Assembly: GCA_937981995.1 (NCBI GenBank)
Contig: CALJNC010000009.1
Span: forward strand, 33,917-97,916
DNA from: an uncultured Chitinophagaceae bacterium
GTDB lineage: Bacteria; Bacteroidota; Bacteroidia; Chitinophagales; Chitinophagaceae
Direction of reading: 5' to 3'
Length of the DNA: 64,000 nt
The position numbers were made by a program, and so were the translations under genes. Positions 60,224 through 64,000 of this stretch are shown here, in pieces. Numbering within the stretch: position 1 is the stretch's first letter; every line of letters begins with the position of its first letter. The notes beneath the pieces are model-generated. The model was not told the DNA's origin. It saw only the letters and a list, made by a program, of their open reading frames with translations, and did no database searches.

Positions 60224-60568
60224 TCACTGGGAACTTGTTTTTACAATAGCAGTTAGCATTTTTATTATTTCAACTATTTCTAATTTCTCCTTTGATAGGT
60301 TTATTTCCACAAGATTTGATTGATCAAGAAGTTCTAGCCAATATTCCGTTTCTCTAGCTTTTTTTGAGGAAATGCTCATTTTAGGAATAAAGTCCTTTCT
60401 AGATTGAGCTGCAGAAGCCTCCCGCACATTTGCTCCAATACTGGTAGCTGATCGTAAAAGTTGTTTTGAAAGAATAAATTCTTTTTGTTCAACCAATTTC
60501 TTATAAACCGAAATAATATTTAATGCAAAGTTGAACGACTTATCCTTAATAGTGCTTGATTGGATCAT
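60224..60568 (-). CDS. Four-helix-bundle protein (23S rRNA intervening-sequence-protein/S23-like)
   Basis: SFNFALNIISVYKKLVEQKEFILSKQLLRSATSIGANVREASAAQSRKDFIPKMSISSKKARETEYWLELL, characteristic of the family. Confidence 0.92.
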   Translation of the reverse strand: MIQSSTIKDKSFNFALNIISVYKKLVEQKEFILSKQLLRSATSIGANVREASAAQSRKDFIPKMSISSKKARETEYWLELLDQSNLVEINLSKEKLEIVEIIKMLTAIVKTSSQ

Positions 60569-60632: not shown

Positions 60633-62222
60633 CTATAATTTATGCTTAAAATCACTTGTGATATAAAACTCAATATCAGGATTGTTTTGTCTCTCGGTAT
60701 TTAAATACCATTCGCTTTCTGCTAGATAAACCAAGTTCCCTTCTTTATCTTCTACTATATTAGAAGACTTAAACTTAATAAAGGCATTAATTTTATCTTG
60801 GTCGCCTTTTATCCAGCAAGCTTTAAAATACGGCATATGCTGAAAAGAACATTTAGCACCATACTCGCCTAATAATCGGTATTGAATCACCTCAAACTGG
60901 AGCTCCCCTACACAACCCACAATCTTACGATTACCGCCATGTTGTGTAAACATTTGAGCAACCCCTTCATCAGTTAATTGTCGAATCCCTTTATCTAATT
61001 GCTTAGACTTCATTGGATCGTTATTGATAAGCTCTTTAAATAACTCTGGCGAGAAACTTGGGATACCTACATAATTCATTTCTTCTCCTTCGGTAAGCGT
61101 ATCACCAATTTTAAACGTACCCGAATCATAGAGTCCAACTACATCACCTGGAAAAGCCTCATCAATAATCTCTTTATCACTAGCCAAGAAAGCATAAGGA
61201 TTATTAAAACGTAATTTCTTATCCGCTCGTATGTTTTGGTAAAACTTATTTCGCTCAAAACGCCCAGAACATACACGTAAAAACGCTAAGCGATCTCTAT
61301 GCTTGGGATCAATATTAGCATGAATCTTAAAAACAAAACCGCTAAATTTATCTTCACTTGGTAGCACTTCACGCTGGTCTGTCATTCGGGGTCTTGGGTT
61401 AGGAGCTATTTCCACGAAAGTGTCGAGCATATCCTTAATCCCAAAATTATTTACAGCACTTCCAAAAAATACAGGTGCTAGTTGACCACTCAAATAAACT
61501 TCCTTGTCAAAATCTTCATAAACACCCATGAGCAATTCACCGTCCTCACGTAATTGATTGGCATCTTGCTCGCCTATCATAGTATCTAATTCTGGCACGC
61601 TCAAATCCGGCATAGGCACCAAATCATTTTCAGTTGCCTTTTGATTTTTACCAAAAGCGATTATGCTTTTATTAAATAAATTATAAACCCCTTTAAAATC
61701 ACTGCCCATATTTATAGGCCAGGTTAAAGGTTGTGTTTGTATGCCTAATTTCTCTTCTATCTCTTCTAATAAGTCAAACGGATTTTTACCATCTCGATCC
61801 ATCTTATTTATAAATACAATCACGGGCGTATTACGCATACGACAAACTTCCATGAGTCGCTCCGTTTGTGCCTCTACCCCTTTCACACAGTCAATTACGA
61901 GTATCACACTATCCACCGCCGTAAGCGTACGATAGGTATCCTCAGCAAAATCTTTATGCCCAGGTGTATCTAAGATATTTACAATCTTATCGCGATACTC
62001 AAAGCTCATAACCGAAGTAGCCACAGAGATCCCACGCTGTTTTTCAATCTCCATAAAATCAGAGGTGGCGCTCTTTTTAATCTTATTAGACTTTACAGCG
62101 CCCGCCGTTTGTATGGCCCCTCCAAAAAGGAGCAACTTCTCCGTAAGCGTAGTTTTACCAGCATCTGGGTGAGAGATAATGCCAAAGGTTTTGCGTTTTT
62201 CTATTTCAGCTTGAAATTTCAT
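60633..62222 (-). CDS. prfC: Peptide chain release factor 3
   Basis: [67 protein letters not shown]; 529 aa. Confidence 0.97.
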
Positions 62223-62441
62223 AGAGGGTGCGAAGGTAAGTTTTTAGTTTTTAAGCTTGCCACGCTTTGCGTGGTTTTGTATGCTTGGTTTTTAGTTTGA
62301 ATAGAAAAACGCTTACCCCTTTATAGTAATACAAATGAATGTTTCAGTAGAATATTATTATTTATATTCGTAAAAACATGCGCATATATCTGATATAGGT
62401 GGTATATAAACAATAGATATATAACACAATGGGTTTATACG

Positions 62442-62458
62442 GATGTTAGCTGTAATAA
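62442..62458. repeat. Left arm of 17-bp perfect inverted repeat GATGTTAGCTGTAATAA (right arm 63289..63305)
   Basis: Exact reverse complement of TTATTACAGCTAACATC at 63289..63305. Confidence 0.9.
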
Positions 62459-62476
62459 GAATAAAGCAACCAACAA

Positions 62477-62713
62477 ATGAACTTTCAAGATAAATTGTTT
62501 AATCAAACTCAGGATAAACTAGCTGAAACAATATCAGCGCTTATGAGAAGTATAAATGATAAAGAAAAAAGTGTTGAATTCTTGACCAATTTGAAAGATG
62601 TACCATCAATTGATACATTACAAAGAATAAATAAGATAGCAACTGATAAAGAAGATTATGAAACATGTGAAGCTCTAAAATCGTACTCTATAAAAAGAGG
62701 AATAACACTATAA
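62477..62713 (+). CDS. Hypothetical small protein
   Basis: 78-aa ATG ORF with helical, charged composition. Confidence 0.55.
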   Translation: MNFQDKLFNQTQDKLAETISALMRSINDKEKSVEFLTNLKDVPSIDTLQRINKIATDKEDYETCEALKSYSIKRGITL

Positions 62714-62720
62714 AAGGCAA

Positions 62721-62948
62721 ATGAAAATACTTATACAATCTGACATAGATAATAATTTAGAACTAATAGAGGAATTCAATGATTATGAAACTGAAAAGCA
62801 AGAAGCTGACATAGGAAGTGGAGCAGACTGGTGGTTTACTCTATTAACAATTGGAGGAATAGCAGGAACGATATTTTTAAGCGGAAAAAAAATTGAAGAA
62901 AATTTAGAAGCGTGGGTTAAAATTGGAACTAGAATTAAAAATGTTTAA
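62721..62948 (+). CDS. Hypothetical small membrane protein, possibly 5' part of a frameshifted gene
   Basis: 75-aa ORF with one TM (WWFTLLTIGGIAGTIFLS); begins 8 bp after the upstream ORF. Confidence 0.55.
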   Translation: MKILIQSDIDNNLELIEEFNDYETEKQEADIGSGADWWFTLLTIGGIAGTIFLSGKKIEENLEAWVKIGTRIKNV

Positions 62949-62974
62949 AAAATAAAAAGAAAATAACCGTCTTT

Positions 62975-63301
62975 TTGGACAAAGATGGAGCTATTGCCTT
63001 AGCGATTAAAGAAATTAATGACAAGGTAAAAAAACTGAATTCAATAGAATTAATTTTTGACAAGAAATTGAGTAACGGAGGACTTGAAAAATATTTTAAT
63101 GATGGAAGGAAAGTAGGAGATTTAATATCTGAACCTTACAATTTTTATATTTTAATCTTTAAGGTTAACGAAAATGACCAATTCATTTTTTGCGTAAAAT
63201 CAAATGGAGAGATTAAGTATAAAGATATTTTCAGCGATGCGTGGTTTGATTATAGCTATGATTGGAATACTATAGAAAATAGGACGGATTATTACAGCTA
63301 A
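62975..63301 (+). CDS. Hypothetical protein, TTG start; open frame extends upstream (..KKITVFLDKDGAIALAIKEIND)
   Basis: 108-aa ORF; the same frame is open upstream into the poly-A region near 62940. Confidence 0.5.
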   Translation: MDKDGAIALAIKEINDKVKKLNSIELIFDKKLSNGGLEKYFNDGRKVGDLISEPYNFYILIFKVNENDQFIFCVKSNGEIKYKDIFSDAWFDYSYDWNTIENRTDYYS

Positions 63302-63305
63302 CATC
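63289..63305. repeat. Right arm of 17-bp inverted repeat TTATTACAGCTAACATC
   Basis: See 62442..62458. Confidence 0.9.
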
Positions 63306-63380
63306 AGTAACTGATGCGCAACTCTAATTCAGACACATGAGATGCGTTATTATGCATGAGGTATCTTGACGAAAAAAACA

Positions 63381-64000
63381 CTAGGATACAACACAAGACT
63401 GCACACAAGCAAAACATTCCAAAAACAGCTTTCCTAAGCTGTTTTTTATTCGATTTTTGGCAATTAGTTGCTCATTCGGCACACTTATCCTAGGTGGTTT
63501 CAGATACTTTAATAATTTTTTGAGGTTATAAGCCGTAGCAGCCATAAGCATACATTTATTAGCTTGCGATTTACCACGAGTATTCACCTTGCTCATACCT
63601 AGAAAATTTATTAGCGTTCCAAAAACAGGTTCCACCGTACTCATACGTTTTGTTTTGTGCCAACGCTCATTTTGCAAACGGGCATTATTGCGCTCATACT
63701 CGGCACGGTAAGCCGTTATGCTTATTCTTTTTTCATGGCTTTTACCAATACATTTTTCTCTTATCGGACAAGCTTTGCAATCGCTACGCCGCGTAAAATA
63801 ATAATCTTTAAGCGTACCCTTTTCTACTTTTTGTCTGCGAAAAGTTACATGCTTGCCCCGTGGGCATAACCAATAATTTTCTGCTTCGTTATAAATAAAT
63901 CCCTCTGGGCCACCTTTGTATGTACCATGAGGCGGTATATAACTTTTTATATTTCTTGCTTCTAACCAAGCATAATTCTCGCCACTACTATAACCTGCAT
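63381..64000 (-). mobile_element. IS1182-like transposase, C-terminal part; gene continues beyond window end
   Basis: Uninterrupted reverse-strand frame from 64000: AGYSSGENYAWLEARNIKSYIPPHGTYKGGPEGFIYNEAENYWLCPRGKHVTFRR...DCKACPIREKCIGK...YRAEYERNNARLQNERWHKTKRMSTVEPVFGTLINFLGMSKVNTRGKSQANKCMLMAATAYNLKKLLKYL. Confidence 0.9.

Follow-up and report, generated by a model that had tools for sequence, protein, structure and literature searches.

An inverted repeat beside prfC in a Chitinophagaceae genome read as the boundary of an integron-type gene cassette

The window analyzed here is a 64,000-nucleotide stretch of a contig (C9) from an uncultured Chitinophagaceae bacterium. Near its right end, a perfect 17-bp inverted repeat encloses a short block of small co-oriented reading frames between prfC and an incomplete IS1182-family transposase gene. 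The arrangement raises the question of whether the repeat marks the ends of a transposon or has another origin. Considering the evidence as a whole, we conclude that the segment from 62446 to 63302 is very probably an integron-type gene cassette that lies behind a dispersed attI-like site and whose own attC is interrupted by an insertion sequence (Table 1).

Table 1. Features of the right-hand end of the window
Feature	Position	Strand	Basis or remark
prfC	60633-62222	-	flanks the block
attI-like attachment site	62350-62447	+	repeated copies, homology ending at GTT
Promoter-like -7 box, TATATTCG	62363-62370	+	consensus only
Stem arm L'' of the attI-like site	about 62380-62390	+	
Stem arm L' of the attI-like site, GGGTTTATAC	62431-62440	+	followed by spacer GGAT
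Left arm of the 17-bp repeat, GATGTTAGCTGTAATAA: R' box (GTTAGCTG, GTT word from 62445) and cassette 5' end	62442-62458	+	
Crossover GTT of the attI-like site	62445-62447	+	
Cassette gene 1, 78-aa helical protein	62477-62713	+	ORF
Cassette gene 2, about 190 aa (ORF2, 62721-62948, plus the ORF3 frame to 63301)	62721-63301	+	homology
Right arm of the 17-bp repeat, TTATTACAGCTAACATC: holds the R'' box (CAGCTAAC, 63295-63302) of the cassette's own attC	63289-63305	+	
ATCA, predicted 4-bp target duplication of the insertion sequence (TGAT|GTT on the minus strand)	63303-63306	.	copies compared
Outer end of the insertion sequence, GTAACTGATGCGCAACTC	from 63307	-	comparison with other copies
IS1182-family insertion sequence, 3' end only (transposase 63381-63998, incomplete)	63307-64000	-	PF13751, NF033551

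The inverted repeat and the two genes between its arms

A preliminary description of this DNA had reported the perfect repeat and its two neighbors, prfC and an IS1182-like transposase, and we recovered all three. The two arms are exact reverse complements, and the pair grows to 21 nt when one mismatch is allowed. With arms at least 300 nt apart, 17 nt is the longest perfect inverted repeat between the prfC start and the transposase stop codon (62223 to 63380), a length reached in 2 of 1,000 dinucleotide shuffles (0.2%). The DNA is AT rich, and repeats of 12 nt or more occur in 7% of shuffles, as would suit arms that arose by chance or that serve as terminators around resident genes. Against such an origin, which we consider hardly credible, stand the rarity of 17-nt repeats, the parallel loci in the same genome, and the absence of the block from congeners. 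In addition, the complementarity of R' and R'' extends over 14 nt counted from the G of GTT, an outcome found in 0 of 1,000 shuffles when the word was fixed at GTT.

The block had been described as three ORFs without recognizable homology, but it contains two genes. For gene 1, the description stands, as searches of Pfam, NCBIfam, PHROGs, and PADLOC gave no family above cut-off for its protein. Gene 2, in contrast, has homologues. ORF2 and ORF3 form a single reading frame, interrupted by a -1 shift where the sequence is rich in A (about 62940 to 62965), and its stop codon falls within R''. Both halves match an intact 191-aa protein (L048) of the Bacteroidota genome G1019, with pairwise E values of 7e-15 and 4e-13 and identities of 47% over 49 and 35% over 83 residues, respectively. 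The joined sequence also aligns across the junction with a 198-aa Paracoccus plasmid protein (24% over 157 positions; pairwise E, 2e-9). We considered programmed -1 frameshifting, but no canonical slippery heptamer was seen in frame before the ORF2 stop codon, and a real or sequencing frameshift is therefore preferred. Close relatives of gene 2 were absent from 299 genomes of the family and from the viral contigs, genome contigs, and phages searched, while a class-level search returned weak matches (E, 0.007 to 0.1). The gene 2 product has a conserved GAD motif followed by a hydrophobic stretch. An AlphaFold model of the homologue, computed without an alignment, reached a mean pLDDT of 36 and was discarded.

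The cassette is a non-autonomous accessory element. No integrase gene lies in cis to it, the integrase gene being located on another contig, and in the congeners G001 and G002 the DNA upstream of prfC carries neither the left attachment site nor the cassette. The idea of a non-autonomous mobile cassette in the preliminary description holds as far as the accessory nature and the absence beside prfC in two congeners are concerned; as to the kind of element, it does not.

A probable cassette boundary with a word of its own

The homologue of gene 2 occupies one of nine cassettes on a 9.5-kb contig (L054, G1019:C16:1-9519), with hairpin sites between the cassettes. Each of them opens with a GTT word, and the box at which it closes comes near to the reverse complement of that word. 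When the nine nucleotides behind GTT were compared, the two ends of a cassette agreed at a mean of 7.3 positions, versus 3.3 for the start of one cassette and the end of another, and 0 of 100,000 permutations were as good. The two boxes of one hairpin site mostly do not match each other. A match between the start and end words of the same cassette is the pattern left by site-specific recombination at G|TT and is known as the integron rule. The repeat in the window follows this rule, with R' at 62445 and R'' ending at 63302. It is the pair of R'/R'' boundary boxes of an integron-type gene cassette, not a pair of transposon termini. The array in G1019 also holds a zeta-toxin-like ATPase and a beta-lactamase-fold hydrolase and runs past at least one contig end.

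Since every cassette carries a word of its own, this 17-mer would not be expected to recur. At 0 to 1 mismatches, the 17-mer has no second locus anywhere in the 2.73-Mb genome, and the three matches with 2 mismatches each lack a second arm; the other cassettes with the same termini that the preliminary description had suggested looking for are therefore not present in this genome. The same result bears on the possibility that the block is a non-autonomous, MITE-like transposon with 17-bp terminal inverted repeats and a transposase acting in trans. A perfect terminal repeat, accessory content, and an adjoining transposase are what such an element would display. Its termini, however, would be without another copy in the genome, no target duplication was seen around the block, the repeat is already accounted for by the own-word rule, and the left flank is itself a repeated sequence, with copies that cease to be homologous at the crossover. 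We therefore regard a MITE-like transposon as very improbable. The block had further been likened in design to loci encoding four-helix-bundle proteins, a likeness that looks superficial; in the window, the gene for such a protein (a 23S rRNA intervening-sequence protein, 60224 to 60568) has TTTTTAG-type repeats on both sides.

Parallel loci were found on two other contigs of the same genome. On C10, a copy of the left site stands in front of GTTAGCTTCC, after which come a TPR lipoprotein gene, GGAAGCTAAC, and a 70-nt attC. The R'/R'' pair of this cassette measures 10 bp, and its attC folds into R and L stems with unpaired spacers of 3 versus 6 nt (z, -2.7). Behind this attC lies a second cassette, which encodes a DUF4240 protein. 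On C5, the cassette behind a weak copy of the left site has a 9-bp R'/R'' pair and a hairpin. In the window itself, R'' is present, while the remainder of the 3' attC is broken by the insertion sequence and cut off at the contig end, since contig C9 stops at the end of the window, inside this element. Folding of the right end as a complete attC was not significant, as a result of this interruption.

The left attachment site and a recombinase encoded on another contig

The left site, about 97 to 100 bp long, has copies that are about 80% identical on C10 and, in the congener G001, on C83 and C119. A covariance model of the site recovered these four copies and the weak fifth one on C5, and none in 297 other genomes of the family. 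The site was also not found on plasmids, and five matches from a pattern scan of viral contigs were read as chance. All four copies have in common a TAnnTTyG promoter-like box and two arms, of the GCGCATATA and GGGTTTATACGGATGTT types. Their homology ends at the GTT crossover, after which the sequences are unrelated. In G001, neither site has a matching R'' within 1 to 3 kb, so that a readable cassette does not stand behind every left site. The two attI-like sites of this congener (L088:1094-1209 and L089:2902-2992) lie 3' of an rRNA methyltransferase-like gene and of dnaA.

We interpret the left site as attI-like. Alternatively, the cassette could be real and the left site the attC of a lost upstream cassette, that is, a lone attC without an integrase. 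In its folded form, the left site shows attC-like L arms, its end reads GATGTTAGC, and attC clusters without an integrase are common in published surveys (PMC9024848). What precedes an attC, however, is part of the gene to which that attC belongs, whereas the four left sites are alike over 25 to 30 nt upstream of the stem, including the promoter-like box. Moreover, the 3' 31 nt of the site resemble the integrase-linked attI of the genus. On balance, a lone attC appears rather unlikely.

An integrase-linked attI is present in the same genome. On C7 (G000:C7:85387-87387; L116, L123), about 50 bp separate the gene for a 381-aa tyrosine recombinase from ACACAGATGTT (attI), behind which come a penicillin-binding/class-D-beta-lactamase-like gene (PF00905) between GTTAGCACC and GGTGCTAAC, a long attC, and the contig end. 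At the orthologous locus of the congener (G001:C84), the attI is near-identical up to GTT and a different cassette follows. The order of an integrase gene, an adjoining attI conserved to the crossover, and cassettes was thus observed at both loci, away from the contig of the window.

In the C7 recombinase, Pfam recognizes integrase and SAM-like domains, and the protein is extended at its N terminus. Against TIGR02249, two segments scored 100.9 and 93.8 bits (cut-off, 265), and profile positions 180 to 238 are missing. In comparison with VchIntIA, the IntI of Vibrio cholerae (2a3v), 68 residues are reduced to 25 at this gap. The enzyme lacks the IntI additional (I2) domain and hence differs from a canonical integron integrase. 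As this domain is considered necessary for integron recombination, its absence weighs against the cassette interpretation. Because a canonical IntI was recovered in the same order, in G054, the test is able to detect IntI. In a tree of 39 recombinases, Xer enzymes were split from the others with full support. Among the non-Xer enzymes, 12 have a GTT-started inverted repeat of at least 9 nt within 260 nt of the stop codon, compared with 2 for reversed words; seven of these 12 are at 10 nt, and chance probably accounts for some of those at 9 nt. The 12 do not form one clade. No such repeat was found behind eight Xer genes, where the downstream stretches were shorter. The IntI-specific domain is likewise missing from relatives of the C7 recombinase that have cassette-like repeats behind them in several genomes.

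Together, these loci suggest how the cassette may have reached its position. It would have arrived as a circle and been joined at G|TT of the attI-like site by a tyrosine recombinase acting in trans, for which the C7 enzyme, encoded directly upstream of its own attI and cassette, is the likely candidate. The 17-bp repeat would then be a trace of this insertion: the 5' end of the cassette (TTAGCTG...) and its 3' R'' box would represent two arms of one folded attC that are parted when the circle opens at the crossover. Judging from its consensus, the promoter-like box in the left site could drive transcription of both cassette genes.

The IS1182-family neighbor and relation to known integrons

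The C-terminal 205 aa of the transposase, the portion present on the contig, matched NCBIfam NF033551 with an E value of 5e-37 and 127.9 bits, below the cut-off of 270. One end of the insertion sequence is readable, with 4 bp separating it from the GTT in the attC box that belongs to the cassette itself; the other end is beyond the contig. We found the same placement, with NNNN|GTT directly behind an end in ...RGTYAC, in all five copies of this subgroup, a small sample that comprises the window, two chromosomal copies (L042 and L044), and copies on an Arenibacter (L092) and a Myroides (L094) plasmid. L092 and L094 have the same 4 bp on both sides of the element, a 4-bp target duplication, while the second duplication copy of the window element is off the contig. 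Among copies with the end AGCCAC, GTT placement occurred in 2 of 7. The RGTYAC subgroup thus seems to target cassette boxes, which would explain the presence of a transposase beside the module. The element is not a likely mobilizer of the cassette and instead interrupts its 3' attachment site. We propose that an element with a preference for such boxes entered the attC after the cassette had been joined, and that this insertion probably disabled the attC for excision.

In L094 (Myroides albus plasmid NZ_CP102755.1), the duplication CGAT is located exactly before a GTT box, with an ereD macrolide esterase gene downstream. Separately, an IS1182-family copy on a Hymenobacter plasmid (L176; NZ_CP141188.1) apparently sits in the loop of an attC-like hairpin (CTTATAAC ... 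GTTATAAG). IS110/IS1111 elements of the IS1111-attC group target attC. The window element would resemble them as an insertion sequence aimed at cassette attachment sites but is a DDE element of the IS1182 family, and its predicted 4-bp duplication adjoins the GTT of an R box. In the titles and abstracts covered by a search that left most subscription journals outside, we found no report of IS1182 in attC.

The system shares with integron cassettes and chromosomal integrons the order of its parts, the G|TT crossover, the R'/R'' and L'/L'' boxes, the asymmetric hairpin attC, the co-oriented genes, and an attI conserved up to the crossover. It differs in that the recombinase has an N-terminal extension and no IntI additional domain, the R boxes often break GTTRRRY, and attI-like sites that include a promoter-like box lie dispersed, with no integrase beside them. 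As in CALIN, the attC clusters without an integrase (PMC9024848), the cassette lies away from the integrase, but here it is a single cassette behind an attI-like site rather than a cluster of attC sites. Integron surveys select integrases by the IntI additional domain (PMC2426708, PMC9668308), and for Bacteroidetes proper IntegronFinder 2 lists only a single complete integron, from Salinibacter (PMC9024848). Our literature search, again with most subscription journals outside it, yielded no paper on cassette arrays with domain-less integrases in Bacteroidota.

These comparisons allow a broader interpretation, for which we find the case evenly balanced: an integron lineage that is widespread in Bacteroidota may have been overlooked, its recombinases lacking the IntI-specific domain and yet acting on asymmetric attC hairpins. 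Within the genus, one integrase would serve several attI-promoter sites at dispersed positions, any of which could accommodate a cassette, and an IS1182 subgroup would be specialized in these sites. If recombinases of this kind do act on the attI and cassettes beside them, integron-type gene capture in Bacteroidota is undercounted, and the system would offer a natural test of folded-attC recombination without a domain thought essential. Such a test would bear on the origin of integrons from Xer-like enzymes (PMC4792948). Finally, the class-D-beta-lactamase-like cassette on C7 and the Myroides insertion at a box near ereD suggest that the system may carry resistance genes.
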